Shown: in pieces, positions 16,899 through 46,900 of the stretch
Position numbering within the stretch: the stretch's first letter is position 1
How the letters are laid out: each line of letters begins with the position of its first letter
Source of the DNA: Muricea muricata
Lineage: Eukaryota; Cnidaria; Anthozoa; Malacalcyonacea; Plexauridae
DNA: 64,000 nucleotides
Direction: 5' to 3'
Assembly (NCBI GenBank): GCA_963855995.1
Contig: OY979720.1
Location: 17,940,139 to 18,004,138 of the forward strand
Notes under the pieces: generated by a model
What the model was told of the DNA's origin: nothing
Databases searched by the model: none
The model's input: only the letters and a program-made list of their open reading frames with translations
Position numbers and translations under genes: made by a program

Positions 16899-17778
16899 GG
16901 AAGTGTAGTGCAGTTTAGAAAAATAGGTGATGTTATTTTTCAACAAGAAAGATACTTCGAAATAGATTCTAAGTTCTCTCTAATCCTAATCGTAATTCTA
17001 ACCATAGCAACAGGAAACGACTACCTGCCCAAACTCTTAAAATCAAAAATTGTCAAAACGATGCGACGTCAGTGTGGTGGATGGAAAACAAAAATTCACT
17101 TGTTTAGTGCACTGGAACGAGCGCGCCAAACTGCGTCAAGCGTGAACAGTGGTTTACATAGAGTGAACACTCTGGTAATTTTCTAATTAAGCGTTCATTG
17201 GGGTAGAGGTTGTTTATTCATGTATTCGTGTTCTGCACGACGAATCTCTTTTAAAATCGAGACGACTTCATAATTAAATACACCCCTACCCCACCACCAC
17301 CACCAACTGAAGGCTCTACAAAATATAAGCATTAAAGAATTTACTCCTGCGCAAAGATTTAAAAAGAAATACTATAACATCAAGTCCACAACATGTTAAA
17401 TAATTTAGAAATGACTACTCACTCTCAGTTTTAAGGGTTTTTAAGACTCGAGTCTGCCATATTGTGGCCTAAAACACTGAATAGGTGCTTGTGCAAGAAT
17501 TAGTTAAGTATGGACGCGCTTGGTTTGTGCGCGATGATAAAAGTCGCTGTTGTATTAGGCAATCAGTTCACCAAGTCGATTTGCAAGTTTTAATTTTTGT
17601 GTTTTGCTGTTTTTTGTGTTTATTTACCACAAATATCGATAGTTTGAGTCACTTTGAGACATTAAAAACGCGTATTATGTTGTATCATATAATATGAGCG
17701 AGATTAAATGCAATTTAGGTCAGGTTTTTTTCTGGAACCAGTCCCCTAAAGCGCGCGCAAATTTTAAAGGACAGTATC

Positions 17779-18087
17779 CAATCTCGTACCCAGAGCAATG
17801 CCTGTTCGCGGGTTAGGCTGGCATTGGCTCTGGGGAAACGGAATGAACTGCGTATGATTTCATACGCGCTCACTTAATGCGCATGCTCTCCACTAATAGG
17901 CTGTGCTTTATTTCCAGCAAAATAATCATAAGTACAACAGTTGAGCCCGAATAAATAAAGCATAGCCTATTAGTGGAGAGCATGCGCATTAAGTGAGCGC
18001 GTATGAAATCATACGCAGTTCATTCCGTTTCCCCAGAGCCAATGCCAGCCTAACCCGCGAACAGGCATTGCTCTGGGTACGAGATTG
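17779..18087. mobile_element. MULE-like MITE, 309 bp, with 9-bp target duplication
   Basis: A near-perfect long palindrome has ends CAATCTCGTACCC and GGGTACGAGATTG. It is flanked by GACAGTATC at 17770-17778 and 18088-18096. The empty site in the second duplicate (about 38816-38824) has a single GACAGTATC, which proves the insertion and fixes the borders. A relative at 50543-50856 also has a 9-bp duplication. Nine-base duplications are typical of Mutator-like elements. Confidence 0.87.
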
Positions 18088-18260
18088 GACAGTATCCGGC
18101 TGGCAGCCGAGCAATCGTAGACAAAATTTGCGGCTGCCAGCCGACGCCGAACATGCTAATCGGGTGATATATCAGTGCAGGTGCAGGCCAGTGTTGCAGG
18201 CAAGATAAATATTAATTAACATAGTTTTGTGTCGCGCAAAATTTATGTCAAATTTCTTAA

Positions 18261-20565
18261 AGGTAGGTTACAGTCGCTTCTGCGCATGTGCGATAGGTTT
18301 GTTATGAGGAGCCTCCTCATAACAAGTTTCCAGTCCCATGGCGTAAATGAAAACACGCGCGGCCGTCTGAATCATTCTCTGTTGTATTGCAAGGAGCGAT
18401 GGCGCATCAAGTCCTGGCATAAAAATTGTTGCTTTGAGAGTTTCAAGATCAAACAATTAATATTAGATTCTGAAAACGCGGCAAATCGCGTCGCCTAAAG
18501 GTTTAGTTATTCGCGTTCGGTAGCTTTTGCTTCAGATGCTGTGGGTTTCGTTCGAGACTTCGAATCGCACAACAGAATATTCACGTTTCACGACATGCTC
18601 ACAGTCACCGGCTCTGTCATGCAGAGTGGTAAGAAATATATTGTATTACTTTTACATAATAAGGAAATGTTAAGCTAGTTACGCTAACTGAGTTCTACTG
18701 ATAATATTCAGGATGAATTTAGAAGTTGACAAGTATGTTTAAAACATGAAAGAGTGTAGAGAGGAACCTTACATGCAATCACAATTTTGGCAGAGAACCA
18801 ATTTTATCAAAAGAAAATCATGATACTGTAGTCTGTTTATCACTCCATGAGTATATTGTGGATATGATCTATAACATAACTAGCAATACATAGAGGATAT
18901 TATTTACGAGTGGTGAAAACACGTTCAGGTTGGAACAAGCGAACAGAGAACATATAAATCCTAGGGGAAAACACACGCGTTTTTCAAGCGTTGCATACTT
19001 TTCACGTCTTCACTAGTGAAAATATGAGAGATACGAGTGTTTTAGTTTACGGTGAAACGCCCATAAAGCCATAACCATATAATAAATGAGCTTATTCGAT
19101 GGCTTACACAGATAATGAGTGCAGGCTTCAACCGCTTGTACAAGGTGTGAAATGAATTATACATTTTATATACGCCCTGTAGAATATTCAATTAAATTGT
19201 CGTATTCTCGATTCCATTAACTCTATAGTATAGTAACTTTTACAATCCGTTTCCCAAACAAATTCAAAGTAATGAGTGAATTCAAAGCCGCGAAGCGAGA
19301 TGCGGAAATTGCGAGTTTGAATATCCGGTATTAAAATTGTCGGTGTAGGCGTTGATGTCTCTGGAAGTGTTAATTTTGTGTTTCAAGCATAATAGCCTGG
19401 AACACATTTCAAACTGTTATACTGTATACAGTTTTTTACTACATATTATAATCCCAGACTCAATATAATGCAATATAAGCACAATATGCATGTGCTCTCG
19501 TCGTGATATTATATCGTATAAACATGATATAATGCTCTCGTCCAGGTGCACGCCATAGGCATAGGCATAGATGTGATTTTGGTTGCTTGATCGAGAATTT
19601 AGCCTGATGTTTGACGTACAGTAATTGTCGCTCATTTACTCTTCTGCTGAATCACAACAAAATACGCGTGTGCGAACTGCCCAATTATGTAAAAATCCTG
19701 GCAAAATTTTCATGTATTTGCACCTGGATAATTTTATCATTTTACTTATTCTGAAATTTACATGTAGTAGTTTCATACATTGAAATATAACACAAGTGTT
19801 ATCTAATATCATCGTACTAATCGTAGACCTTCTATACATGCTATGAACGTTTATATACACATACACAGGCTACAGTTCAAAATGCTTATCCATCCCATTT
19901 TGTAAACTATTTGTTTGTAAAGTATGAGTTTTTGCTTTCATCACTGTGCTTTCAATTTCATTACTGTGTCTGTGTTTTCACTAAAAACACATTCGCTGCC
20001 AGTTAATGTACCCTTATCATGATATATAAGTCTGGAATCGAGAATACGACAATTTAATTGCATATTCTACAGGGCGCATATAAAATGTATAATTTATTTC
20101 ACACCATGTACACTCGTAAATAATATCTTCGCGCCATGCACGGTGTAATATCCTCTATGTATTGCTAGCTATGTTATAGATCATATCCACGATATACTCA
20201 TTGAGTGATATACAGACTAGCCTGTGAGCATGTCGTGACTCGTGAATATTCTGTAGTGAGATTCGAAGTCTCGAACGAAAACCACAGCATCTGAAGCAAA
20301 AGCTACCGAACGCGAATAATTAAACCTTTAGGCGACGCGATTTGCCGCGTTTTCAGAATCTAATATCAATTGTTTGATCTTGAAACTCTCAAAGCAACAA
20401 TTTTTATGCCAGGACTTGATGCGCCATCGCTCCTTGCAATACAACAGAGAATGATTCAGACGGCCGCGCGTGTTTCCATTTACGCCATGGGACTGGAAAC
20501 TTGTTATGAGGAGGCTCCTCATAACAAACCTTTCGCACATGCGCAGAAGCGACTGTAACCTACCT
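18261..20565. mobile_element. 2.3-kb non-autonomous TTAA element with very long inverted arms
   Basis: The ends AGGTAGGTTACAGTCGCTTC and its reverse complement are flanked by TTAA at 18257-18260 and 20566-20569. The other duplicate has the empty site CTTAAATATAC. The arms stay recognisably inverted for most of the element (left arm to about 19215, right arm from about 20020), with indels. No transposase frame: the inverted open frames of 60-90 codons are simply the two arms read outward. The TTAA target suggests piggyBac or Kolobok-type mobilisation. It sits about 45 bases upstream of the NAGK-copy start codon, splitting its presumed promoter. Confidence 0.85.
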
Positions 20566-20610
20566 TTAAATATACATCTCTAGACCAGTGTCCTGAACAC
20601 ACTAAGGAGT

Positions 20611-24874: not shown

Positions 24875-25852
24875 CTACCGAGCCTGGGAGTCCTAAAAGC
24901 TCAGATCATAATCAGCATGCACCTAACACTCAGCCAGAAGAAAATAATAAAAGAAAAACGGATGAATCACATGAACATTCTCTCCCGCCAAAAAAGAAAA
25001 AGGCAATTACACCTCATGATGATGTCACGGTAGTTGATGTTGAGTCTGCAATTGGACCAAGTAAGCATGAAGGTAAGAAATTGAAACTAACAATTACATA
25101 ACAGCGAATAAATATATCAAAATCTCGTACGTTGCAATTCACTCAGTATAACCATTAATACACTAAATTACAGAAATAGAAAATTTATCTGATGCAAGTA
25201 TCTCTCCTTTGATGAAAATTCGACCAACAGAATCAAGCAACCGGTATGTGGTAATTCATTCATAAATGACTACATCACTGTAAAATGTATATGTATATGT
25301 ATATGTATACGTATATGTGTATGATTTTTGACAGTAAATATAATTAAAATACATCTATATATTTTCAGAAAAGTTTTCGAGATTCAAAAATTAACAGAGG
25401 AGGTAGAACAACTGGAAGCAGAAGTTTCAAAAATAAAAAAAAGGTTGAGACTGCTTGAAAACAGCTTTAACGGAAACAAAGTTAATCAAGCTTCATCCGT
25501 GGCTGCTGAAAAAGAAAAACAGCCGAAGGGAGAAAGTTATAATGGCTACACGATAAGTGAACTTAAATCATCTATTAGACCAACCGATCCCCTTGCAAAA
25601 GTTGTGGCCAGTATCTTCAAAAAGCTATTCACAACTGATGAGATTATAAACTGTTCCATAACTGGAAAAAAAAGTATTAAAAGTGGAGACGAAGGGCCGC
25701 GTCCTGCATTGGACCAGAACAGGTTTAATGTCTTTATGGATATAATTTTATCAAGTTGTACAGAGGCCACTAGAAAGGAAATTGTGGAAAAAGTGCAAAA
25801 TGTGATGAAAACAACCCGCAAAAAGCACAAAAAAGGGGCTGAAAGTTTTTAA
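24875..25852 (+). CDS. BEN-domain protein, 3' three exons (5' exon not found)
   Basis: Exons 24875-25072, 25174-25243 and 25369-25852 have GT/AG borders and consistent phases (1, 1, 2) and give about 249 residues. The order is a charged linker with a PPKKKKA nuclear-localisation-like patch, then a short coiled coil (about 30 residues from KVFEIQKLTEEVEQLEAEV). The BEN domain covers the last 100 residues: DPLAKVVASIFKKLFTTDEI, the SITGKKSIKSG signature, then RPALDQNRFNVFMDIILSSC. BEN domains bind DNA in chromatin proteins and occur in some viruses and mobile elements. The first exon here starts in phase 1 with no ATG in the same frame except through the microsatellite, so the true start is unknown. 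The gene lies wholly inside the element at 23667-27739. The intact frame suggests it is, or recently was, functional. Confidence 0.8.
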
Positions 25853-26678
25853 AAAATCTGGTTTCACATGAATAGAACATTGATTTCCGGCAGCTTTTTG
25901 TTTGGATTATGTTCGCGTATTTAGGTTCTGATCAATTGTAAACTTCAGTTGCCTGTTAATTGTATGTGTAGATGCTGAATGACATTAGGCGTAAACTGTT
26001 TCTATACATTATTATGTTTGGACCCGGGCATGAATATTTTAAAAGGATTAATTCTCAGCATTTGCTCCAATGGCAATGTTACAAAAATAAATTTTCAAAA
26101 TAAATTTTTCTGGAATTTGTTCGCATGCAAGTATTCCTCGTTTTTTTCATAGCTCAACAGCGCATTAGCGTATTATTCATTTATAATTTATAGATACCTG
26201 TAGCTAACCATGAATATTGCTAATGAAAAATTCATAACGCTTTCATCAGAATTTCATGAATATTGTTCTTGAAATGTTCATGAACAGTTTCATGAGAATT
26301 TCATGATAAAAACTGTGAAAGCATGGCCTATCGATCGCCCTCCTACTCGTCGGAACGTCGCGCTTGTTCCGACGGCCGAGTATAGGTGCGACGCTTGAGC
26401 GCCATCCATTTTCAGGGCTAGTTGATTCGAATTTCATGAATATTGCTTAAATGTTCCTCAAATATTCATGAACAGTTTCATGCGAATTTCATGAATAGTG
26501 CCTTAAATGTTCCTCAAATATTCATGAACAGTTTCATGAGAATTTCATGAATAGTGCCTTAAATGTTCCTCAAATATTCATGAACAGTTTCATGAGACTT
26601 TCATGAATATTGTTCCTTAAATATTCCTCAAATATTCATGAACAGTTTCATGAGACTTTCATGAATATTGTTCCTTAA

Positions 26679-27195
26679 AGGGAAATGGCAACAAAAAATT
26701 TTATTTTCTCATTTGAAAGAGACTCTGAAATAATATACAGAAGTCTATTACAAAATTTTTATATCTGTTTTACTTCGGGAGATATTCTCACCTAAATAAT
26801 CGAACTGTCCGCCATCTTGGATTAATTTTTAACCTCATTAACAATATTTTAGTGACGTCACAACAGGGATAAGCGATTCCAAGCTTCTCCTAAATACCTA
26901 CCACCAATAGAATATTTTTGAAACCTTTTCAGTCCGTGCTGAAATCCAAAACACTTACTATGTGTGTGGTTATTAGAGAAAATTAATCATTGTGTCCTAA
27001 GAAAAAAAATTGCGTGACCCAAGTTGTGACGTATCATGCATATCTACAAATATCCAAGATGGCGGACAACTAAAGATTTCAAGTCAAAATATCTCACCAA
27101 ATAAGGCAAATATGAAAATTCTGTAATTGACTTCTATACATTGTTTTGGAGTCTCTTTCAAATAAGACGATAAAAATTTTTGTTGCCATTTCCCT
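26679..27195. mobile_element. TTAA MITE, 517 bp, nested in the BEN-carrying element
   Basis: The ends AGGGAAATGGCAACAAAAAA and its near reverse complement are flanked by TTAA at 26675-26678 and 27196-27199. The arms continue with TTTGAAAGAGACTC and, further in, CCAAGATGGCGGAC. No coding capacity. It is younger than its host element. Confidence 0.83.
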
Positions 27196-27740
27196 TTAAA
27201 TGTTTCTCAAATATTCATGAACAGTTTCATGAGAATTTCATGAATATTGCTGATTATTACGTAGTTCGTATGTACGCGAGTCCTCTCGTTTTAGGAATAA
27301 GTTCATTCAACTTATTTTTCGGTATGAATTCATTATGAATATAAACTGTGAAAGCATGGCCTATCGATCCCTTAGTCTTTAAAGTTCTCATTTGAAAATT
27401 TTTTACTACCACCAAGATCTGCACCAGCGGCCGTTTCACCCTGGCTCGCGCCAAAGGCTGTGTCACGACCGCCGCGCCCTCCTACTCGTCGGAACGTCGC
27501 ACTTGTTCCGACGGCCGAGTATAGGAGCGACGCTTGAGCGCCATCCATTTTCAGGGCTAGTTGATTCGAATTTCATGAACATTGCTTAAATATTCCTCAA
27601 ATATTCATGAACAGTTTCATGAGAATTTCATGAATATTGTTCCTTAAATGTTCCTCAAATATTCATGAGAATTTCATGAATATTGTTCATGCGATATTCC
27701 TCAATATTCATGAACAGTTTCATCAAATTTTCGCCGGGGA

Positions 27741-27975
27741 TAGCACTCTAACTTTCTTAGAACAATTTTATGATCAACTGTGTCAAATGCCTTTTTGAGA
27801 TCAATTAGAACAACCATATTAAATAATTTCCTGTCTATATCGACATACCAGTCATTAGTACAATCCAACAATGCTGTAGTTGTGGAATGGAATTTGCGAA
27901 AACCAAACTGACAATCATTCAGATAGAATTCTAGCCTCATTAGGTATTCGTATAATTGATCATTACTTTAATTTC
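27741..27975 (-). mobile_element. Non-LTR retrotransposon remnant, 5' part (RT palm start)
   Basis: The minus strand encodes CQFGFRKFHSTTTALLDCTN and VVLIDLKKAFDTVDHKIVLR, the start of the reverse-transcriptase palm with the first catalytic Asp. It joins in sense to the piece at 22345-23665 across the inserted BEN element. The element is 5'-truncated at about 27975, where the second segmental duplicate begins. Confidence 0.87.
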
Positions 27976-28171
27976 AAATAATTTTCAACAAGAAAGATAC
28001 TTCGAAATAGATTCTAAGTTCTCTCTAATCCTAATCGTAATTCTAACCATAGCAACAGGAAACGACTACCTGCCCAAATTCTTAAAATTAAAAATTGTCA
28101 AAACGATGCGACGTCAGTGTGGTGTATGGAAAGCCATAGCTGTCTTAAGTGATAAAACGTCATTTCATTAG

Positions 28172-28735
28172 GTGCTTTATACATTATATACGGTGCTTTA
28201 AACATGACATGCGGTGCTTTGAGTATTATATGCGGTGCTTTAAACATTATATGCGGTGCTTTGAGCATTATATGCGGTGCTTTAAGCATTATATGCGGTG
28301 CTTTAAACATTATATGCGGTGCTTTAAACATTATATGCGGTGCTTTAAACATTATATGCGGTGCTTTAAACATTATATGCGGTGCTTTAAACATTATATG
28401 CGGTGCTTCGAGCATTATATGCGGTGCTTTAAACATTATATGCGGTGCTTTGAGTATTATATGCGGTGCTTTAAACATTATATGCGGTGCTTCGAGCATT
28501 ATATGCGGTGCTTCGAACATTATATGCGGTGCTTCGAACATTATATGCGGTGCTTTGAACATTATATGCTGTGCTTTGAGCATTATACGCAGTGCTTTCA
28601 TCATTATACGCAGTTATTTCATCATTATACGCGGCGCTTTCATCATTATATGCGGTGCTTTCATCATTATACGCGGTGATTTCACCTTTGTACGCGGTGC
28701 TTTGAACATTATACGCGGTGGTTCCAGCGTCATTA
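28172..28735 (+). repeat. 21-bp minisatellite in the left arm
   Basis: About 27 tandem copies of the unit GGTGCTTTAAACATTATATGC. Variants become more common toward the inner side (TTTCATCATTATACGC). Because 21 is divisible by three, the array gives long open frames on both strands (for example repeated CGALNII), which I do not consider genes. Confidence 0.93.
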
Positions 28736-29045
28736 TACTCAGTGAGCCAGTACCTTTGGTCAGCGTTGTGGAATCTTACACGATTCTGCTATACGTCATG
28801 TCATCAAGAATATCTAAACACTCATCGAATATTCATAGGGCGATCACGTGTCATTTCCTGCTTCGAAATTTACAAGTTGAGCGCAGTTATAAAACGGTAA
28901 AATATATAAGACTTTTCTGGCGTTTTAAATCGAAAGTAAACCCAGGGGGTTTGAAATATGGAACAAATACTGCAATCTTTAAATTTGGGGACTTTGCGTG
29001 GCCGATTTGAAGCACAGCGAATAGAACCGCAGGCAGTTTTAAATT

Positions 29046-32000
29046 TAATGCAAAATTTTGAAAAATTTTGGGAAAAAATTTTGAAAAAAAATTTGGGAAA
29101 AAAATTTGAAAAAAAATTCGGGAAAAAATTTTGGCAAAAAATTCTGAAAAAAATTTGGGAAAAAAATTTTGAAAAAAAAATTTGGGAAAAAATTCTGAAA
29201 AAAATTTGGGAAATCATGAACAAAAAAATTTGGGAAAAAACCTTGAAAAAAAATGTGGGAAAAAACCCCAAAAAAAAAATTTGGGAAAAAATTCTGAAAA
29301 AAAAATTGACAAAAATATTGGGGAAAATTTTGAACAAAAAATTTGGGAAAAAATTTTGAAAAAAGTTTGGGAAAAAAATTTGAAAAAAAATTCGGGAAAA
29401 AATTTTGACAAAAAATTTGGGAAATTCATGAATATTTCATGAATAATTCATGATAATTCATGAAAAATATTGGGGAAAATTTTGAATAAAAAATTTGGGA
29501 AAAAATTTTGAAAAAAGTTTGGGAAAAAAATTTAAAAAAAATTCGGGAAAAAACTTTGACAAAAAATTCTGAAAAAAATTTTGGAAAAAATCTTGAAAAA
29601 AAATTCTGGAAAGAATTTTGAAAAAAATTTTGGGAAATTCATGAATAATTCATGATAATTCATGAAAAATATTGGGGAAAACTTTGAACAAAAAAATTTG
29701 GGAAAAAATTTTGAAAAAAAATGTGGGAAAAAATTCTAAAAAAACAATTTGGGAAAAAATTCTGAAAAAAAAATTGACAAAAATATTGGGGAAAATTTTG
29801 AACAAAAAATTTGGGAAAAAATTTTGAAAAACGTTTGGGAAAAAAATTTGAAAAAAAATTCGGGAAAAAATTTTGACAAAAAATTCTGAAAAAAATTTGG
29901 GAAAAAATCTTGAAAAAAAATTCTGGAAAAAATTTTGAAAAAAAATTTGGGAAATTCATGAATAATTCATGAATATTTCATGAATAATTCATGAATATTC
30001 ATGAATAATTCATGATAATTCATGAATAATATTGGGGAAAATTTTGAATAAAAAATTTGGGAAAAAATTTTGAAAAAAGTTTGGGAAAAAAATTTGAAAA
30101 AAATTCGGCAAAAAATTTTGACAAAAAACTTTGACAAAAAATTCTGAAAAAAATTTGGGAAAAAATCTTGAAAAAAAATTCTGGAAAGAATTTTGAAAAA
30201 CAATTTGGGAAATTCATGAATAATTCATGAATAATCATGAATAATTCATGAAAATCATGAATAATTCATGAAAATCATGAATAATTCATGATCATGAATA
30301 ATTCATGATTTTTCAGGAAAAAATCTTGAAAAAAATTAGGAAAAAGTTTTGACAAAATTTTTTTTCCCAATTTCTTTTTCAAAATTTTTTCCTGAATTTT
30401 TTTTCAAGATTTTTTCCTGGAAAATTCATGAATTATTCATGAATCATTCATGAATTATTCATGAATTATTCATATTCATGAATTATTCATGATTTCCCAA
30501 ATTTTTTTCAGAATTTTTTCCCAAATTTTTTTTTCAAAATTTTTTTCCCAAATTTTTTTTTAAAATTTCCCAAAAAAATTTGGGAAAAAATTCTGAAAAA
30601 AAAATTGACAAAAATATTGGGGAAAATTTTGAACAAAAAATTTGGGAAAAAATTTTGAAAAAAGTTTGGGAAAAAAATTTGAAAAAAAATTCGGGAAAAG
30701 ATTTTGACAAAAAATTTGGGAAATTCATGAATATTTCATGAATAATTCATGATAATTCATGAAAAATATTGGGGAAAATTTTGAATAAAAAATTTGGGAA
30801 AAAATTTTGAAAAAAGTTTGGGAAAAAAATTTAAAAAAAATTCGGGAAAAAACTTTGACAAAAATTCTGAAAAAAATTTTGGAAAAAATCTTGAAAAAAA
30901 ATTCTGGAAAGAATTTTGAAAAAAATTTTTGGAAATTCATGAATAATTCATGAATATTCATGAATAATTCATGATAATTCATGAAAAATATTGGGGAAAA
31001 CTTTGAACAAAAAAATTTGGGAAAAAATTTTGAAAAAAGTTTGGGAAAAAAATTTGAAAAAAAATTCGGGAAAAGATTTTGACAAAAAATTTGGGAAATT
31101 CATGAATATTTCATGAATAATTCATGATAATTCATGAAAAATATTGGGGAAAATTTTGAATAAAAAATTTGGGAAAAAATTTTGAAAAAAGTTTGGGAAA
31201 AAAATTTAAAAAAAATTCGGGAAAAAACTTTGACAAAAATTCTGAAAAAAATTTTGGAAAAAATCTTGAAAAAAAATTCTGGAAAGAATTTTGAAAAAAA
31301 TTTTTGGAAATTCATGAATAATTCATGAATATTCATGAATAATTCATGATAATTCATGAAAAATATTGGGGAAAACTTTGAACAAAAAAATTTGGGAAAA
31401 AATTTTGAAAAAAAATGTGGGAAAAAATTCTAAAAAAACAATTTGGGAAAAAATTCTGAAAAAAAAATTGACAAAAATATTGGGGAAAATTTTGAACAAA
31501 AAATTTGGGAAAAAATTTTGAAAAACGTTTGGGAAAAAAATTTGAAAAAAAATTCGGGAAAAAATTTTGACAAAAAATTCTGAAAAAAATTTGGGAAAAA
31601 ATCTTGAAAAAAAATTCTGGAAAAAATTTTGAAAAAAAATTTGGGAAATTCATGAATAATTCATGAATATTTCATGAATAATTCATGAATATTTCATGAA
31701 TAATTCATGATAATTCATGAAAAATATTGGGGAAAATTTTGAATAAAAAATTTGGGAAAAAATTTTGAAAAAAGTTTGGGAAAAAAATTTGAAAAAAATT
31801 CGGCAAAAAATTTTGACAAAAAACTTTGACAAAAAATTCTGAAAAAAATTTGGGAAAAAATCTTGAAAAAAAATTCTGGAAAGAATTTTGAAAAACAATT
31901 TGGGAAATTCATGAATAATTCATGAATAATCATGAATAATTCATGAAAATCATGAATAATTCATGAAAATCATGAATAATTCATGATCATGAATAATTCA

Positions 32001-35000
32001 TGAATTTTTCAGGAAAAAATCTTGAAAAAAATTAGGAAAAATTTTGACAAAATTTTTTTTCCCAATTTCTTTTTCAAAATTTTTTCCTGAATTTTTTTTC
32101 AAGATTTTTTCCTGGAAAATTCATGAATTATTCATGAATCATTCATGAATTATTCATGAATTTCATGAATTATTCATATTCATGAATTATTCATGATTTC
32201 CCAAATTTTTTTCCGAATTTTTTCCCAAATTTTTTTTTCAAAATTTTTTTCCCAAATTTTTTTTAAAATTTCCCAAAAAAATTTGGGAAAAAATTTTGGG
32301 AAAAAATTTCGAAAAAAAATTTGGAAAAAGAATGCTAAAAAAATTTGGGAAAAAATTTTGAAAAAAGTTTGGGAAAAAAAATTTGAAAAAAAAATTCGGG
32401 AAAAAATTTTGACAAAAAATTCTGAAAAAAATTTGGGAAAAAATCTTGAAAAAAAATTCTGGAAAGAATTTTGAAAAAAATTTTGGGAAATTCATGAATA
32501 ATTCATGAATATTCATGAATAATTCATGATAATTCATGAAAAATATTGGGGAAAACTTTGAACAAAAAAATTTGGGAAAAAATTTTGAAAAAAAATGTGG
32601 GAAAAAATTCTAAAAAAACAATTTGGGAAAAAATTCTGAAAAAAAAATTGACAAAAATATTGGGGAAAATTTTGAACAAAAAATTTGGGAAAAAATTTTG
32701 AAAAACGTTTGGGAAAAAAATTTGAAAAAAAATTCGGGAAAAAATTTTGACAAAAAATTCTGAAAAAAATTTGGGAAAAAATCTTGAAAAAAAATTCTGG
32801 AAAAAATTTTGAAAAAAAATTTGGGAAATTCATGAATAATTCATGAATATTTCATGAATAATTCATGAATATTCATGAATAATTCATGATAATTCATGAA
32901 AAATATTGGGGAAAATTTTGAATAAAAAATTTGGGAAAAAATTTTGAAAAAAGTTTGGGAAAAAAATTTGAAAAAAATTCGGCAAAAAATTTTGACAAAA
33001 AACTTTGACAAAAAATTCTGAAAAAAATTTGGGAAAAAATCTTGAAAAAAAATTCTGGAAAGAATTTTGAAAAACAATTTGGGAAATTCATGAATAATTC
33101 ATGAATAATCATGAATAATTCATGAAATCATGAATAATTCATGAAAATCATGAATAATTCATGATCATGAATAATTCATGAATTTTTCAGGAAAAAATCT
33201 TGAAAAAAATTAGGAAAAAGTTTTGACAAAATTTTTTTTCCCAATTTCTTTTTCAAAATTTTTTCCTGAATTTTTTTTCAAGATTTTTTCCTGGAAAATT
33301 CATGAATTATTCATGAATATTCATGAATAATTCATGATAATTCATGAAAAATATTGGGGAAAACTTTGAACAAAAAAATTTGGGAAAAAATTTTGAAAAA
33401 AAATGTGGGAAAAAATTCTAAAAAAACAATTTGGGAAAAAATTCTGAAAAAAAATTGACAAAAATATTGGGGAAAATTTTGAACAAAAAATTTGGGAAAA
33501 AATTTTGAAAAACGTTTGGGAAAAAAATTTGAAAAAAAATTCGGGAAAAAATTTTGACAAAAAATTCTGAAAAAAATTTGGGAAAAAATCTTGAAAAAAA
33601 ATTCTGGAAAAAATTTTGAAAAAAAATTTGGGAAATTCATGAATAATTCATGAATATTTCATGAATAATTCATGAATATTTCATGAATAATTCATGATAA
33701 TTCATGAAAAATATTGGGGAAAATTTTGAATAAAAAATTTGGGAAAAAATTTTGAAAAAAGTTTGGGAAAAAAATTTGAAAAAAATTCGGCAAAAAATTT
33801 TGACAAAAAACTTTGACAAAAAATTCTGAAAAAAATTTGGGAAAAAATCTTGAAAAAAAATTCTGGAAAGAATTTTGAAAAACAATTTGGGAAATTCATG
33901 AATAATTCATGAATAATCATGAATAATTCATGAAAATCATGAATAATTCATGAAAATCATGAATAATTCATGATCATGAATAATTCATGAATTTTTCAGG
34001 AAAAAATCTTGAAAAAAATTAGGAAAAATTTTGACAAAATTTTTTTTCCCAATTTCTTTTTCAAAATTTTTTCCTGAATTTTTTTCAAGATTTTTTCCTG
34101 GAAAATTCATGAATTATTCATGAATCATTCATGAATTATTCATGAATTTCATGAATTATTCATATTCATGAATTATTCATGATTTCCCAAATTTTTTTCA
34201 GATTTTTTTCCCAAATTTTTTTTTCAAAATTTTTTTCCCAAATTTTTTTTAAAATTTCCCAAAAAAATTTGGGAAAAAATTTTGGGAAAAAATTTCGAAA
34301 AAAAATTTGGAAAAAAATTCTGAAAAAAAAATTTGGAAAAAGAATGCTAAAAAAATTTGGGAAAAAATTTTGAAAAAAAGTTTGGGAAAAAAAATTTGAA
34401 AAAAAAATTCGGGAAAAAATTTTGACAAAAAATTCTGAAAAAAATTTGGGAAAAAATCTTGAAAAAAAATTCTGGAAAGAATTTTGAAAAAAATTTTGGG
34501 AAATTCATGAATAATTCATGAATATTCATGAATAATTCATGATAATTCATGAAAAATATTGGGGAAAACTTTGAACAAAAAAATTTGGGAAAAATTTTGA
34601 AAAAAAATGTGGGAAAAAATTCTAAAAAAACAATTTGGGAAAAAATTCTGAAAAAAAAATTGACAAAAATATTGGGGAAAATTTTGAACAAAAAATTTGG
34701 GAAAAAATTTTGAAAAACGTTTGGGAAAAAAATTTGAAAAAAAATTCGGGAAAAAATTTTGACAAAAAATTCTGAAAAAAATTTGGGAAAAAATCTTGAA
34801 AAAAAATTCTGGAAAAAATTTTGAAAAAAAATTTGGGAAATTCATGAATAATTCATGAATATTTCATGAATAATTCATGAATATTTCATGAAAAATTCAT
34901 GATAATTCATGAAAAATATTGGGGAAAATTTTGAATAAAAAATTTGGGAAAAAATTTTGAAAAAAATTTGGGAAAAAAATTTGAAAAAAATTCGGCAAAA

Positions 35001-37332
35001 AATTTTGACAAAAAACTTTGACAAAAAATTCTGAAAAAAATTTGGGAAAAAATCTTGAAAAAAAATTCTGGAAAGAATTTTGAAAAACAATTTGGGAAAT
35101 TCATGAATAATTCATGAAATCATGAATAATTCATGAAAATCATGAATAATTCATGAAAATCATGAATAATTCATGATCATGAATAATTCATGATTTTTCA
35201 GGAAAAAATCTTGAAAAAAATTAGGAAAAAGTTTTGACAAAATTTTTTTTCCCAATTTCTTTTTCAAAATTTTTTCCTGAATTTTTTTTCAAGATTTTTT
35301 CCTGGAAAATTCATGAATTATTTATGAATCATTCATGAATTATTCATGAATTTCATGAATTATTCATATTCATGAATTATTCATGATTTCCCAAATTTTT
35401 TTCAGAATTTTTTCCCAAATTTTTTTTTCAAAATTTTTTTCCCAAATTTTTTTTAAAATTTCCCAAAAAAATTTGGGAAAAAATTCTGAAAAAAAAATTG
35501 ACAAAAATATTGGGGAAAATTTTGAACAAAAAATTTGGGAAAAAATTTTGAAAAAAGTTTGGGAAAAAAATTTGAAAAAAAATTCGGGAAAAGATTTTGA
35601 CAAAAAATTTGGGAAATTCATGAATATTTCATGAATAATTCATGATAATTCATGAAAAATATTGGGGAAAATTTTGAATAAAAAATTTGGGAAAAAATTT
35701 TGAAAAAAGTTTGGGAAAAAAATTTAAAAAAAATTCGGGAAAAAATTTTGACAAAAAATTCTGAAAAAAATTTGGGAAAAAATCTTGAAAAAAAATTCTG
35801 GAAAGAATTTTGAAAAAAATTTTTGGAAATTCATGAATAATTCATGAATATTCATGAATAATTCATGATAATTCATGAAAAATATTGGGGAAAACTTTGA
35901 ACAAAAAAATTTGGGAAAAAATTTTGAAAAAAAATGTGGGAAAAAATTCTAAAAAAACAATTTGGGAAAAAATTCTGAAAAAAAAATTGACAAAAATATT
36001 GGGGAAAATTTTGAACAAAAAATTTGGGAAAAAATTTTGAAAAACGTTTGGGAAAAAAATTTGAAAAAAAATTCGGGAAAAAATTTTGACAAAAAATTCT
36101 GAAAAAAATTTGGGAAAAAATCTTGAAAAAAAATTCTGGAAAAAATTTTGAAAAAAAATTTGGGAAATTCATGAATAATTCATGAATATTTCATGAATAA
36201 TTCATGAATATTTCATGAATAATTCATGATAATTCATGAAAAATATTGGGGAAAATTTTGAATAAAAAATTTGGGAAAAAATTTTGAAAAAAGTTTGGGA
36301 AAAAATTTGAAAAAAATTCGGCAAAAAATTTTGACAAAAAACTTTGACAAAAAATTCTGAAAAAAATTTGGGAAAAAATCTTGAAAAAAAATTCTGGAAA
36401 GAATTTTGAAAAACAATTTGGGAAATTCATGAATAATTCATGAATAATCATGAATAATTCATGAAAATCATGAATAATTCATGAAAATCATGAATAATTC
36501 ATGATCATGAATAATTCATGAATTTTTCAGGAAAAAATCTTGAAAAAAATTAGGAAAAAGTTTTGACAAAATTTTTTTTCCCAATTTCTTTTTCAAAATT
36601 TTTTCCTGAATTTTTTTTCAAGATTTTTTCCTGGAAAATTCATGAATTATTCATGAATCATTCATGAATCATTCATATTCATGAATTATTCATGATTTCC
36701 CAAATTTTTTTCAGAATTTTTTCCCAAATTTTTTTTTCAAAATTTTTTTCCCAAATTTTTTTTAAAATTTCCCAAAAAAATTTGGGAAAAAATTTTGGGA
36801 AAAAATTTCGAAAAAAAATTTGGAAAAAAATTCTGAAAAAAAAATTTGGAAAAAGAATTCTAAAAAAATTTGGGGAAAAATTTTGAAAAAAAGTTTGGGA
36901 AAAAAAATTTGAAAAAAAAATTTGGGAAAAAATTCTGAAAAAAAATTTGGGAAAAAAATTTGAAAAAAAACTAGGAAAAAGTTTTGACAAAAAAATTTTT
37001 TCCCAATTTCTTTTTCAAAATTTTTTCCGGAATTTTTTTCAAGATTTTTTCCTGAAAAATTCATGAATTATTCATGAATATTCATGAATTATTCATGATT
37101 TCCCAATTTTTTTTTCAAAATTTTTTCCAGAATTTTTTTGCAAGATTTTTTCCCAAATTTTTTTTTCAGAATTTTTTGTCAAAGTTTTTTGTCAAAAGTT
37201 TTTCCAGAATTTTTTTTCAAATTTTTTTCCCTAACTTTTTTCAAAATTTTTTCCCAAATTTTTTTTCAAAATTTTTTCCCGAATTTTTTTCAAATTTTTT
37301 TTCCCAAATTTTTTTTCAATTTTTTTCCCATT
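29046..37332. repeat. Higher-order AT-rich satellite core of the foldback element
   Basis: Monomers of about 20-24 bp of the type TTTGGGAAAAAATTTTGAAA form blocks separated by clusters of TTCATGAA and AATAATTCATGA. Blocks recur with a spacing of roughly 0.8-1.7 kb; ATTGGGGAAAACTTTGAAC starts near 29668, 31366, 32548, 33354, 34558 and 35884. Block orientation flips repeatedly, for example at about 30350, 32050, 33230, 34040, 35240 and 36570, so the core itself contains many inverted repeats. G and A dominate one strand of each block and C is rare. A-tracts are spaced about 11-13 bp. Confidence 0.93.
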
Positions 37333-37649
37333 AAATTTAAAACTGCCTGCGGTTCTATTCGCTGTGCTTCAAATCGGCCACGCAAAGTCCCCAAATTTAA
37401 AGATTGCAGTATTTGTTCCATATTTCAAACCCCCTGGGTTTACTTTCGATTTAAAACGCCAGAAAAGTCTTATATATTTTACCGTTTTATAACTGCGCTC
37501 AACTTGTAAATTTCGAAGCAGGAAATGACACGTGATCGCCCTATGAATATTCGATGAGTGTTTAGATATTCTTGATGACATGACGTATAGCAGAATCGTG
37601 TAAGATTCCACAACGCTGACCAAAGGTACTGGCTCACTGAGTATAATGA

Positions 37650-38092
37650 CGCTGGAACCACCGCGTATAATGTTCAAAGCACCGCGTACAAAGGTGAAAT
37701 CACCGCGTATAATGATGAAAGCACCGCATATAATGATGAAAGCGCCGCGTATAATGATGAAATAACTGCGTATAATGATGAAAGCACTGCGTATAATGCT
37801 CAAAGCACAGCATATAATGTTCAAAGCACCGCATATAATGTTCGAAGCACCGCATATAATGTTCGAAGCACCGCATATAATGCTCGAAGCACCGCATATA
37901 ATGTTTAAAGCACCGCATATAATGTTTAAAGCACCGCATATAATGTTTAAAGCACCGCATATAATGTTTAAAGCACCGCATATAATGCTCAAAGTACCGC
38001 ATATAATGTTTAAAGCACCGCATATAATACTCAAAGCACCGCATGTCATGTTTAAAGCACCGTATATAATGTATAAAGCACCTAATGAAATG
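37650..38092 (-). repeat. 21-bp minisatellite in the right arm
   Basis: Mirror image of the left-arm array with the same unit on the opposite strand (GCATATAATGTTTAAAGCACC), but about six copies shorter. The difference in copy number is the main asymmetry between otherwise near-identical arms. Confidence 0.92.
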
Positions 38093-39025
38093 ACGTTTTA
38101 TCACTTAAGACAGCTATGGCTTTCCATAGTGGTGGATGGAAAACAAAAATTCACTTGTTTAGTGCACTGGAACGAGCGCGCCAAACTGCATCAAGCGTCA
38201 ACAGTGGTTTACATAGAGTGAACACTCTGGTAATTTTCCAATTAAGCGTTCATTGGGGTAGAGGTTGTTTATTAATGTATTCGTGTTCTGCACGACGAAT
38301 CTCTTTTAAAATCGAGACGACTTCATAATTAAATACACCTCTACCCCACCACCACCACCAACTGAAGGCTCTACAAAATATAAGCATTAAAGAATTTACT
38401 CCTGCGCAAAGATTTAAAAAAAAATACTATATCATCAAGTCCACAACATGTTAAATAATTTAGAAATGACTACTCACCCTCAGTTTTAAGGGTTTTTAAG
38501 GCTTGAGTCTGCCATATTGTGGTCTAAAACACTGAATAGGTGCTTGTGCAAGAATTAGTTAAGTATGGACGCGCTTGGTTTGTGCGCGATGATAAAAGTC
38601 GCCTGTTGTATTAGGCAATCAGTTCACCAAGTCGATTTGCAAATTTTAATTTTTGTCTTTTGCTGTTTTTTGTGTTTATTTACCTCAAATATCGACAGTT
38701 TGAGACATTACAAACGCGTATTAAGTTGTATCATATAATATGAGCGGGATTAAATGCAATTTAGGTCGTTTTTTTCTAGAACCAGTCCCCTAACGCGCGC
38801 ACAAATTTTAAAGAGACAGTATCCGGCTGGCAGCCGAGCAATCGTAGACAAAATTTGCGGCTGCCAGTCGACGTCGAACATGCTAATCGGGTGATATATC
38901 AGTGCAGGTGCAGGCCAGTGTTGCAGGCAAGATAAATATTAATTAAAATTTTGTGTCGCGCAAAATTTATGTCAAATTTCTTAAATATACATCTCTAGAC
39001 CAGTGTCCTGAACACACTAAGGAGT

Positions 39026-42000
39026 ATGGCAGCTGGTGATATAAAATATTTTGGAGGAATTGAAGGGTTTGTCAATGTAACATCTGTAATTTGTAATAGA
39101 AACATGTAATAATATGTACATTTCTTGGAATTTGGGATTGAACAGCACCATACCAATATAAGGGTTAATAGTATCTGGCACACATTTGTGGCTTATGTTT
39201 TGTTATATGTCACCCTTATTTTTACCATTCACAATTGACAGTGGTGGTTCCTGTTCAAATATGGTTCTTCTCGACTGCGATGGTAAAGTGGTTGGCAGAA
39301 GTGAAGGACTGGGCACAAATCACTGGGTTTGTAGAACTTAAACTTGTACAGGGCGAAAAAACGAATTTGCATCAAATTTGCCTGGTGCAAATATGCTGCA
39401 AATATGAAATTTACAAAGCTTTGCAACCAGTGCAAGGGTGGCAATGGCCGAATTTGCACAAAAACGGGCAAATTCGGCGATTGCCACCTTTGCACTGGTT
39501 GCAAAGCTTTGCAAATTTCATATTTGCAACATATTTGCACCAGGCAAATTTGGGGCGAATTCAATTTTTCATCCAGTGTTGGCTCATTTAGCCACATTGC
39601 ACTCTAACATTAATCCAGCCAATATTATTTTATGATGCTGGAGGATCTTGGGAAGGGCAGAAATCTGTGCAGCACCAAACTGGTTTAGAAAACCTGCTGC
39701 AAAAATGACATTTTCAGCTCAATTTCCACATAAAGTTCCTGAAAAAAGATCAACCAATCAAATTTGTCGTTCTTATAGGAACAACACATTTGATTGGTTG
39801 TTCTTCTTTTGGAAATTTCATATGAAAATTGTGCTCAATTTTTTGGCTCTAGAACAGGATCTTTCCATCATGGTTTTCATACCTTTTCCATCCATCAAGT
39901 TGCTTTTAATTTTCTTTTATGTAGCTGATAGGGGTTGATGAGTGTGCAAAGCGGGTGAATGAAATGGTCGTCAAAGCCAAAGAGATGGCAGGCATACCTG
40001 CAGATACTCCATTGTTTTCATTGGTAATAGGTTGTCTTAAAGACAATTTATAATAAAGTGTTTATGAAATGAAATTTGTTTCAGCATTTTGTTGGTTGAA
40101 TTGGGAAGATGAGATAAAATAACAATGTAACTTCTTTGGTAGAATTTTTGTCCATTCCTTGTCAAGATATTCAACTCTATAGCACAACCACTGATGTCAT
40201 TATTGTACAATGAATGTCTATTAGACCTGCTTATTTTGCAGCATGTAATTATGAAAAGTAACTAAAACTACACTCGCACATGTGTAGGCCATGTTTAACG
40301 TACAGACCTGGGTATTTGAGTGATAAATCTTGAGTTCTTTTTAAATTAATAAAGCTTTTTTTGAAAAGTAGTTATGCACAATGATGTCACTGGTTGTAAT
40401 TTTCATATCAATTAAAATTGAATATCTTGAAAAGTAAGGCAGTTACAAAAATGCTACGTATCAAATTTGTTATACTGTGATTTTTACTCATCTTTTCAAT
40501 GCAATAAAAAACTGTGGGAGAAAATTTTGTTTCATAAACACTTTAAAATTGGGTGGAAATGCACCTAATTTTTGATTTTACGTTGAATAGTAAAAAAATC
40601 CAATTAATAAATGACATAGATATTCAGGTATTATTGGGCATGACATCTGACCATTTCAAAAACAGGGCCTAAGTCTGAGTGGTGGTGAAAAAGCTGAATT
40701 CAAACAAGTAATGAAAAATACAATGAAAACAAGATACCCAAACTGCAGTAAATCATATGATATTTGTACAGACACGTTTGGCTCAATAGCAACTGCAGCA
40801 GAATCAGGTAACTTCAGTAAAGTTGCATGGCATGAATAAAGTTTCAAATTAAAAAAAGAATTAGAGGCACAGTTCATTACCTACGTTTGCTCACGTTTTG
40901 CAGTTCGGTTGCTTTCATTCACAATTAAATAAAGATTGTCTGAATAAATAGAAACAGCTGTCATTAGTGCGGTCATGAAAATGAAGGTGGACACAAAGTA
41001 GTTTAAAAATTTGGATATTCAGACTACGTGCACCCTAGGTCGTTTCCGAGCGTTTTCATTGCAACCGAAATAAAAATTCTCAGTGTTTAGTTTTTGTCCG
41101 GAGACAAGGTTTATGCTGCTTTTTATTAAATTGTGTCAACAAGTTGGAAGTCTTTTGATCTTTCAAACCTTGACGTAGGTAGAGAAACGCATGTATTGCA
41201 TCACGGTCACAGATTAAGTATATACATAATCTGTGTCACGGTTGAACGTGTATTTTCTGGTATTTTCACAGGGGGTATAGTATTGATATCAGGCACTGGT
41301 TCAAACTGTCAGTTAGTCAATCCAAATGGTGACGTACATGGATGTGGCGGATGGGGACACATGCTAGGAGATGAGGGATCAGGTGGGTTAGTTGTGGTTC
41401 CACTATGGGTTCAACTGTTAGGTTTTTATATGTAGGATTCAAAAAACAGCTGCAACACTTTGTCGAAAATATATGCGTAAATTTTAATACGCATTTTACG
41501 TTAACAGTTACTACACAGCGATTATGACAACTCTTATTGGTAATTAGTTTACACTCGACCATTGACTATTACAAATCCAGAGTTTTGATTGGCTTCTCAA
41601 CCATGGACTAATTCGTAATTCCATGGTTGAGAAAAACAAGAAAACAAAATACAGTTTAGAGTGTATACTAAAACAATTAGACAACTCCGCCTCGTTGTCT
41701 ATGAGCGAATAGTCAACACAGGCCTCGCCTTCGTTGACTATTCGCTCAGGAGGCCTGTGTTGACTATTCGCTCAGACAACTCGATCTCGTTGCCTAATTG
41801 TTAAATGGTCCACGGTAGTAGTTGCGTCTCACCGTCACTCCAACCTCTCTGACATAGTTCTCCCGTGTTCATACCTTCTTATGCAAACATGCTAGTAGCG
41901 CTCTAGGGAGAAAGAGGACCTTTTTGAATGACTGTACGCACTTTATGCTAATGCCTAGGTTACTGGATGACTCATATGGCTCTAAAATTGGTCTACGATC

Positions 42001-43903: not shown

Positions 43904-46900
43904 TCACTCTCGATTTTTCATCTCCTTGCAAAAGCAGAACTTCCTCAGATACGGTCGCTTCTTGGCTATGCAGTTTGGCTGATCGCCGTACTTGTTAATA
44001 CGACTAATTTCGTTCCCGTAAAAAAACTTTCCATCCAGCAGTTGTACAGTTACCTCGAATAACGCGCCCCCCGGGAGACTTTCGACCAGTAACTGATAAT
44101 TGCATTCATAATCACTTGTGTGATTACGAAACCGGGGGATACGGCCATCAATATCTTCAGATCCTATAAATTTAACCACCTTGGGATCGTTTAAATTTTG
44201 ATAAGCTGACTTAACCTCGCCAAGTCGAAGGGTGGAGCACTTTTTCGCTGCAAACTTGTCACCTTTCAGGATTTTATTAATGTGAACAACTAATCCCTCC
44301 GCAGCCTTTCGAACATGAAGATGGGTTATGGGTATTTTTTGCAGTTGCACACACGGGCAATAATGTTCTGGTATTCCGCACATCGCACAGCTTCTATCTT
44401 CAGGAATGGCTCGAAAAAGACTGCGACCAATTCCTGCTGGTCTGCTTTTGGGATAGTGTAGGATATGGCGCAATGTCGCGTGTATATCAAACGGAGACAG
44501 GAGTCTGTTTGTATTAGCATTCAAATTCTCATGTAGCTGTGGAAACGTCTTTCGGATTCTTTCTGGAAGAGTGATTGATAGAAATGGCAGTCTTTCTTCC
44601 AAGCGACTTTGCGTCGTAACTCTTGCCTCGCCAAATCTCATGCCATGATCACTGAACGTTATAAGTATCGTATCATTGAGATATTCCTTTTCCCGTATGG
44701 ACTTGAAGAATTCCAAAACATACCGCTCGGTCGGTCGCAGCGTATTCATATTACTGTGTGAAATTTCGGCGAGAAAAGATAGACCGATTTTGGGATGATT
44801 TTTGTAAGCTTTCATGAAGCTTTTGACGTAGTTGAAATGAAGTTGTGGCTGGGGCGTTGATTTGATGCAATAGCTGTCAGAGGGGGCAGCTTGCCAGAAA
44901 GGTCGTGTGTAGTGGTCAGCGGGTGGATCGCGGAATCCAAAAAGTCGATAGTTAAAGGCGTTGTAGTATTCGTCATCTTCGCTATATAGCGTGGCGTAAC
45001 CACGCTCGCGAAACTCTCTGAAAATCCAAGGCCAGGAATCTACTGTTGTTGAATTTGGGTAGCCACGTCTTGCTTCAGGAAGGTGCTGTTCTGTTTGACC
45101 TGAGCAGAGAGAAAATGGTCTAAGATTTTTTTGTTTCAAGGATTCGCAATACAAAAAGATTAAAAAATTACTTGAAGGCAAAGGTAACATGCAAGCCTTA
45201 ATTTGATCATGAATGGTATCAGTTTTGTTACTTTGCGCTAACTTTTGGTTGAGAAAATGGTTTGGGTCATGTAGTCTACTACTTATCTATTACTAGTTAA
45301 CCTGGGTTGCTCTTTGATCAACTGCCTCTTGATAAACATACCTGTCAACATGGCGGTCAACTGTGGTGTAGTTCCATCCCCGACAACTGAGTATCCGTTA
45401 AACAAATACGAGTGTAAATCGTCCTTTAGGAACTTGTACACTTTTGGTAATGCTCTCTGCATTTGTGCTGACGAAGTTGAATCAAAACCCACTAACAAAA
45501 TATTCACACCCAGTCCCTTTCCGCGTCTCTTGCGCTGCAAAACCTCTACTTTTGGTATGACCTCTGCATGGTACTCGACAATGTTCTTGCCAGACGGTAA
45601 CACGGTTTTAATTTGAAGAAATTCTTCATTGATTTTAGATGATAATTTTCGTGACGAATTAAAATGTTTCATTGATATCAAATCATACCCCCAGTCATTC
45701 CCTGGCTTCCTTCGTATTGCTTTTACATATACGGATGTGAAATCTGCAACGAAGAAAAACTCTTAGCAAATTAACCTTTGCAACAAGCCTGATGCATATC
45801 ATTTTCAAGAGCACTTAATGTAGGACTGTTTGGCTCGATAGTCTAAATCATGGCTCTTTTTACTTCTTTCAAGTTTGTTTAATGTTTAATGTGGCCATAG
45901 GATCATTTATAGTGCACGTGTAGTATTATCTTATCGTTCGTATGTCCAGAGACATTGTTTTTGTAGATAAAGTGTGGAGTTTATGCAGATGAACTTATTA
46001 TTAGAATTAAATTCAAACAGGGAACATGATTTCTATGTTCAGGCAAACTTTGAAGAGACTCTTATAAGACATTTTATGGTCACACGTTGATCTTTTATCT
46101 AGATGTACTGCTCAAACTAAAGCTGCAAGTAAGAGTTGGTACTATTAAAAACGAGTTCTATCATTCAATAATACTGTAGTAAGAAAGAATAAGGAACACA
46201 CCTGTTCGCAGGAATGATAATATACCATCATGGTAAGTTGTGTAATGTTCTCCTTGACACACAATCACGGTCTCAGTCTTATGCATGTACTTCATGATAT
46301 TTGCATTGAATGGATCAAGGGTAGGTAAATTACACTTGAACTGCGATGAATGTAGGAATTCATCAACAGGTATAGCACACTGCACTTCCTCGAGTGTGTC
46401 CACATTCGAACGTAATTCTGCTCTCACGTAAAATTCTAAGAAAGGGTCGTGCACAATTTCGGCAGTCAAGTTATTTTTGAGAAAAAGTCGGCCCGATTTT
46501 GACTCGAAAACAAACCCCTGGCAGTCTTCGCCGTACGTTCCACACAGCGTTATTGCTTGTTTTGTGTTACGCACACGGAATTCGTGACATCTACCGTCTT
46601 CATCACAAGCCAAATCATTGCCTTTCAAATCAAAATAACCAACCTATCAAAAACAAACCAAAACAACAAATCTCTTCTAAATTTGTCGTTCATGTTGTGT
46701 GTGATTGTAATTTCCTATCCACCATCACACATCCATAATACCTTTTCCTGGTTATACCCAATTGTCCCTCGTAATTTTACACCTTATACATATAACACTA
46801 TTAGCCTAGATTTATATATTCAAATTTTGTATGTAATATTATCACTTTTCTGAAGATGTTTTACGTTTAGACGAAACCCCCACAATAAATATTTTCTATT

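Follow-up and report, generated by a model that had tools for sequence, protein, structure and literature searches.

A probable IS3EU/GingerRoot-like foldback transposon with a satellite core in the genome of Muricea muricata

Introduction

The foldback elements TU of sea urchin and FB of Drosophila are built of outer tandem repeats, an inner unique domain and a variable middle. Both are mentioned in the paper on Tetris of Drosophila virilis (PMC4079207), itself a non-autonomous element whose long inverted arms comprise an outer domain with tandem repeats and an inner domain; its middle varies, and it is linked to satellite DNA. For this and all further comparisons we draw on the accessible parts of the cited papers. 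Here we describe an element of 10,004 bp with inverted arms around an A+T-rich satellite, located at positions 28125–38128 of a 64-kb stretch of Muricea muricata DNA (assembly GCA_963855995.1, contig OY979720.1, 17,940,139–18,004,138), which was analyzed as a whole and is called the window in the following. We consider it very probably a foldback DNA transposon that is non-autonomous, belongs to an IS3EU/GingerRoot-like superfamily and combines two inverted copies of a transposon's right end with a satellite core.

IS3EU/GingerRoot elements are described as having TA..TA ends, usually 6-bp target duplications and a transposase without the zinc-binding HHCC domain, whose first catalytic aspartate (D) lies 100–300 residues from its start (PMC10045372). 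The family of the window element shares these ends, the duplication length and an integrase-type transposase with its first D in this range, but it differs from the accessible part of that description by its foldback forms, arms of 21-bp tandem repeats, satellite cores and a HECT gene. Tetris differs in having units of about 220 bp, duplications of 8–10 bp and only three copies with a complete structure, and its transposase source is not known (PMC4079207), whereas the window family has its source gene, a form lacking the satellite and transposase-bearing relatives with the same ends together in one genome; moreover, the satellite fills the middle in the window family and the arms in Tetris. 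Galileo likewise has long, internally tandem-repeated inverted ends, but its transposase belongs to the THAP class of the P-element superfamily (PMC3688188), while Tm1, a Mutator/foldback element of root-knot nematodes, has composite foldback-like ends common to transposase-bearing and non-autonomous elements and differs by 9-bp duplications and a Mutator-type transposase (PMC3169594). A connection between IS3EU and satellites is already in print: the oyster satellites CgiSat35 and CgiSat47 are similar to IS3EU (PMC8268682), and half of the beetle satellite TCAST10 is similar to IS3EU-1_TC (PMC5844308); these reports, as far as accessible, concern similarity only and present no foldback with a satellite core. 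Our literature search, which covered titles and the beginnings of abstracts and for which most subscription papers were out of reach, recognised neither a foldback of IS3EU type nor a report of a HECT domain in the IS3EU/GingerRoot superfamily. Thus foldbacks with tandem-repeat arms and satellites resembling IS3EU are already known, and what is new here is the superfamily, the preserved intermediate and the satellite core.

Results

A 10-kb foldback element and its empty target site

The window lies on contig C5 of an assembly of 453 Mb in 74 contigs. The element is flanked on both sides by the hexamer GTGGTG, which can be read directly at 28119–28124 and 38129–38134. Its arms, 28125–29043 (919 bp) and 37336–38128 (793 bp), differ in their alignment by 2 substitutions and by a 126-bp gap that corresponds to six 21-bp units extra on the left. 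Each arm is composed of a 46-bp terminus, an array of 21-bp units and a non-repetitive inner part of 328 bp. On the left, in plus orientation, the terminus occupies 28125–28170 (starting with TATGGAAAGCCATAGCTGTCTTAAGTG and presumably the sequence recognised by the transposase), the array of 26 units with 0% indels 28171–28720 and the inner part 28716–29043; on the right, in minus orientation, the inner part occupies 37336–37663, the array of 20 units 37659–38082 and the terminus, placed by sequence reading and the arm alignment, 38083–38128. An earlier interpretation made from the letters of this DNA (the sequence-only reading) had noticed exact inverted ends, GTGGTG on both sides and arms identical over about 310 unique bases, all of which we could reproduce, with 328 bp measured in the alignment for the identical stretch (28716–29043 on the left). 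It had found foldbacks of such organisation unfamiliar, whereas foldback transposons are a known kind (PMC4079207, accessible part), and the window element matches their structure, with a variable middle between long inverted arms that contain tandem repeats. The outermost bases read TATGG...CCATA, corresponding to TA..TA termini.

Five open reading frames of at least 150 aa overlap the element, and they lie within the arms (21-bp arrays and inner arm) or run from an arm into the satellite. Judged by these positions and by the satellite core, without a Pfam scan of the frames, the element contains no transposase and is non-autonomous. An Rfam scan of the window gave no match, and the 401 nt across the junction of left arm and core folded as RNA no more stably than shuffled sequences (z = 0.84). 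The exact 25-base terminus was absent from IMG/VR contigs and the arm had no match in a distant-mode search of plasmid records, results of little weight, since microbial and viral DNA makes up most of these collections.

The surroundings of the element are duplicated within the window: the segment 16934–22175 is 94–97% identical to 27979–28132 plus 38129–40857. This duplicate holds one GTGGTG at 17074–17079, which is contiguous with both flanks and without an insert. Because of this single hexamer and the missing insert, comparison of the duplicates indicates that insertion of the element as a unit most likely followed the segmental duplication, and the unoccupied target in the first duplicate is as the sequence-only reading had described it. 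The two arms are far more alike than the two segmental duplicates are.

Three further insertions distinguish the duplicates. At 18257–20569, a 2.3-kb insertion with inverted ends of about 348 bp at a TTAA site is missing from the second duplicate and represents another DNA transposon seen against its empty site. Also missing there is a palindromic insertion of about 330 bp (17769–18097), which resembles a miniature inverted-repeat transposable element and has an apparent duplication of about 10 bp around GACAGTATCC. Conversely, a palindromic insertion of about 215 bp (39350–39580) is present in the second duplicate and missing from the first.

A multicopy family with 6-bp target duplications

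The exact 18-bp terminus occurs 232 times in the genome (63 + 41 + 58 + 70, including the window's own ends), and allowing up to 2 mismatches raised the count to 274, compared to 0 for the reversed pattern. By joining exact ends that face inwards less than 25 kb apart we obtained 97 pairs, of which 86 are flanked by an exact 6-bp target duplication and one by a 7-bp duplication, while mismatched partners gave 0 six-bp matches in 9300 comparisons. A chance origin is excluded by these two controls. The pairs range from 308 to 18,226 bp, with the window copy as the sixth longest; 4 of the 97 have flanks that recur from another pair, leaving 93 distinct ones. Among the best 40 matches of the inner arm, 35 fall within the 97 pairs. 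The copy-number check proposed by the sequence-only reading, in which each copy should have its own 6-bp duplication, thus turned out in favour of a DNA element that is palindromic, bears a satellite and inserts as a unit, here as a multicopy family with target duplications, rather than of slow local growth.

We fetched 20 elements whole from the first listed places on C1–C5, a non-random sample. Thirteen were satellite foldbacks; L051 is a rearranged copy with little satellite, L045 measures only 372 bp, L042 is a satellite-free foldback of another subfamily, and L040, L041, L043 and L044 are of a transposase-bearing type. Exact duplications were present in 15 of the 20 (14 of six bp, one of seven bp). 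Since L042 belongs to a different subfamily, foldbacks may have formed more than once. L042 (C1:51279038) and a second 1.6–1.7-kb element at C1:87728120 have common flanks and no target duplication. On C1 and C2, four copies of the terminus are preceded by the flank GAAACTCGAGGAC and two further copies by one-base variants of this flank, as if the end were embedded in another repeat.

We also considered element-specific gene conversion of the arms. There was no strong sign of it: in 11 elements the mean left/right difference within elements is 3.1 of 323 columns, close to the 3.8 between elements. The identical arms of the window copy may simply be young.

Transposase-bearing relatives place the family near IS3EU/GingerRoot

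Three elements with the same ends, L040, L044 and L041, match Pfam PF24764 with E-values of 6.9e-79, 3.9e-79 and 9.6e-78. Their transposase frames are open in L040 (452 aa) and L044 (428 aa) and shortened in L041 (366 aa); that of L043 is broken, and the piece searched matches only the first 18 positions of PF24764 (E 4e-4). In the L040 protein, Pfam gave helix-turn-helix-like matches below the cut-off, rve narrowly missed its cut-off, and the matches at E up to 0.01 included no zinc-binding integrase domain. A candidate catalytic triad, D203, D260 and E295, was assigned by eye, which puts the first D of this integrase-type DDE transposase without HHCC at 100–300 residues from the start. The usual 6-bp duplication is present in 86 of the 97 pairs. 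Because all four published IS3EU features fit, we call the family IS3EU/GingerRoot-like, a name given by published description, without a tree and with PF24764 not tied to IS3EU by name.

The best of the alternatives is that we are dealing with a foldback of another superfamily, for instance Mutator-like, as which Tetris and Tm1 are classed, that merely resembles IS3EU. Most foldbacks do seem to belong to Mutator (PMC4079207, accessible part), but the duplications here are 6 bp rather than 8–10 bp and the elements with the same ends encode an integrase-type and not a Mutator transposase, and we regard this assignment as very unlikely.

The transposase-bearing elements contain a second gene on the opposite strand, whose beginning is SAM-like: three of the four pieces scanned matched with E 0.007 to 8e-5, and L044 alone passed the cut-off. 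In L040 it occupies 3075–5758 on the minus strand, and it is also found in L041 and L044. One L040 exon matches the HECT ubiquitin-ligase domain (E 5.2e-7), while three other pieces of the region gave no match.

The arms derive from the start of a transposon gene

The inner arm of 328 bp aligns over 331 bp with L041's right inner end at 72% identity (E 1.8e-47). By this similarity it comprises the initial 28 codons of the parental transposon's right-hand gene and the DNA upstream of them, with the ATG at 28958 in the left arm and at 37421 on the minus strand in the right arm; the protein start reads MEQILQSLNLGTLRGRFEAQRIEPQAVL in the window and MEQILQSINLGTLLGRFQAQGMEPQAVL in L041. The arm segment, which the sequence-only reading had treated as anonymous unique DNA, is therefore the start of a transposon gene, and because this start is present in both arms, both are copies of one, the right, transposon end.

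A protein search with the right gene revealed foldbacks of the window family that lack the satellite. L084 (C12) is 3205 bp long with CTCAAA on both sides, has arms that are 94–98% alike, and its inner part is 95–97.5% identical to that of the window; the right gene is open from its start codon for 329 codons on one arm. In L085 (C5), which is also satellite-free, the frames have 261 and 329 codons; no right terminus was detected in the part that was fetched. Hence on three of the four arms of these two elements the right gene is open beyond the point at which the satellite copies break off.

In the satellite copies the gene ends at a common point, GCAGTTTTA, followed by satellite. We compared the junctions in 14 satellite foldbacks (the window and 13 fetched copies, excluding L051). 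Both junctions could be read in 12 of them, and all 24 lie at one breakpoint; in 11 of these 12, one junction of each of two types is present. L050 shows the common breakpoint on its one readable arm, and in L057 the exact motif was not found, its one readable frame ending in EPQAVLNLM like the others. This points to one founder of the satellite foldbacks. Taken together, the comparison of arms and junctions strongly suggests that the satellite foldback descends from an inverted duplication of the transposon's right end, and we consider this explanation as a whole very likely. A conserved peptide running across arm and satellite was also considered and rejected, as the frames from the gene's start codon span 19–133 codons in the satellite copies and differ between copies.

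The satellite core consists of tandem units

The core (29044–37335, 8.3 kb) has a G+C content of 20–22% and is built of A-rich repeats of 12, 25 and 37 bp together with TTCATGAA-type blocks. The 1.5-kb core of L049 matches it about six times head to tail, in partial copies of 89.6–91.5% identity, so the core contains about 6 head-to-tail copies of a unit of roughly 1.2–1.5 kb. The 8.3-kb satellite centre of the sequence-only reading thus stood, but not its repeatedly flipped blocks, since the polarity map places the strand flips inside each tandem unit. In other copies the core measures from about 1.1 kb (L046) to 4–5 kb, and we infer that it expanded by unequal exchange or slippage. A 24-base core marker was detected in 11 of the 38 loci L001–L038, with 16 of 16 matches on the element side of the terminus; these loci had been fetched by arm or terminus, which makes this an unfair test. 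Within the window we counted TTCATGAA 131 times in the core, 18 times in 26000–27980 and 13 times elsewhere. Just left of the element, 26209–27732 is a repeat-rich region of 46–58-bp units rich in TTCATGAA.

Terminal arrays with a 21-bp period

At the 30 of 30 ends inspected on C1–C3, which had been picked by their first 25 bp, the terminal 27 bp are constant across the subfamilies seen and are followed by eight different continuations. The 21-bp period is kept in the three elements checked besides the window (L040, L041 and L082), with units that differ, and arrays are found in both ends of L040 and L041 and in an element at 30.7 Mb of C1. In the long ends of Galileo, tandem repeats contain multiple transposase binding sites (PMC3688188, accessible part). 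By analogy, the 21-bp units, spaced by about two helical turns, may constitute a phased array of transposase binding sites.

Chromosomal distribution

Although the three large contigs (C1–C3) make up 57% of the genome, 193 of the 232 ends lie on the thirteen small chromosomes C4–C16, where 114 of the 193 are located in the outer tenths (38.6 expected). Distinct pairs behave alike: 82 of 93 are on small chromosomes, 47 of these 82 in outer tenths. For transposase genes we evaluated 99 rows, obtained by scoring 93 of 1221 candidates, some of which represent pieces of a single gene; of the 99 rows, 9 lie on small chromosomes, all in the interior (0.44–0.66 of the length), 2 on small scaffolds and the rest on C1–C3. 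The non-autonomous family thus has a chromosomal distribution sharply unlike that of the scored transposase genes. The contrast is not a clean one, as 5 of 10 rows of right-gene fragments outside foldbacks, from three places (C9, C12 and C14), lie within 2.5% of a chromosome end; having been chosen by score, these rows do not amount to a proper control. The flank CATTAAGCGCGCA was found at five ends, and subtelomeric duplication may add to the end counts.

Discussion

We propose the following course of events. An autonomous transposon with long terminal repeats of 21-bp units would have carried a transposase gene on the left and a HECT-domain gene on the right. An inverted duplication of its right end, together with the first part of the right gene, would then have produced a transposase-free palindrome whose two ends were both usable. 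The centre of one founder would have become an A+T-rich satellite joined after codon 28, and this founder would have spread by means of transposases made elsewhere, while unequal exchange or slippage altered the core to between about 1.1 and 8.3 kb in the copies seen. Beyond the observed family, duplications, empty site, arm origin, satellite-free form, common junctions and tandem core, we infer the order of these steps, mobilisation at the present day and which transposase is involved.

Several observations weigh against this explanation. Nine of the 97 pairs have no exact duplication (five of them by a single mismatch), another pair is an uninformative poly-C, 38 of the 232 ends remain unpaired, and 5 of the 20 fetched elements are without an exact duplication. 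In L084 the second arm is closed after 21 codons, and L046 has two junctions of the same type. Among the hits scored (93 of 1221 transposase-type and 88 of 465 right-gene candidates) there was no intact autonomous element of exactly the window family, and the nearest right gene outside foldbacks, that of L041, is only 72% alike in the arm DNA. Finally, foldback centres are unstable, so the assembled core length may be wrong.

The last point leads to an assembly artefact, in which a region would have been collapsed or mirrored at a difficult repeat. Palindromes and satellites are where assemblers fail, and the repeated flanks in 4 of the 97 pairs could be duplicated haplotypes. However, 2 bases and six repeat units distinguish the two arms, there is a target duplication at the ends, and the same design recurs in 97 pairs at mostly different flanks, which leaves an artefact highly improbable. 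The sequence-only reading had also considered an extrachromosomal palindrome, that is, a hairpin or palindromic circle from a replication error or amplification which integrated once without a transposase. Near-perfect arms and a tandem core look as expected for it, but duplications of 6 bp at 86 of 97 sites, and of 7 bp at one more, refute it as the main account; the terminus is constant genome-wide, and such a palindrome is not needed as an explanation, as transposase-bearing relatives have the same ends, so that we give it hardly any credence. Local growth, with a satellite expanding in place and unequal exchange producing the inverted structure without any insertion, may hold for the core after insertion, since core length varies between copies, but for the whole element it is refuted by the clean empty site with its duplication and by the recurrence of the arms at numerous sites whose flanks differ, and its probability is negligible.

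Foldbacks are often found without their source, as in the case of Tetris, which leaves the formation of the palindrome to guesswork. The foldback transposon described here comes with a fragment of the source gene, a satellite-free palindrome and satellite copies with common junctions in one genome, from which a likely order of events can be read, and it exemplifies satellite DNA that grows within a transposon and is dispersed with it. A broader view would join three aspects: the steps from two-gene element through inverted-duplicated right end to satellite foldback kept in one genome, binding arrays in helical phase, and a palindrome that seeds satellite preferentially into distal parts of small chromosomes. 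We offer this combination tentatively, as a possibility somewhat short of an even chance.

Other genes in the window code for a fibrinogen-C domain (2169–2831), a BEN domain (25328–25852), a DUF229 protein (43904–45190) and a rhodopsin-type receptor (60742–61944).

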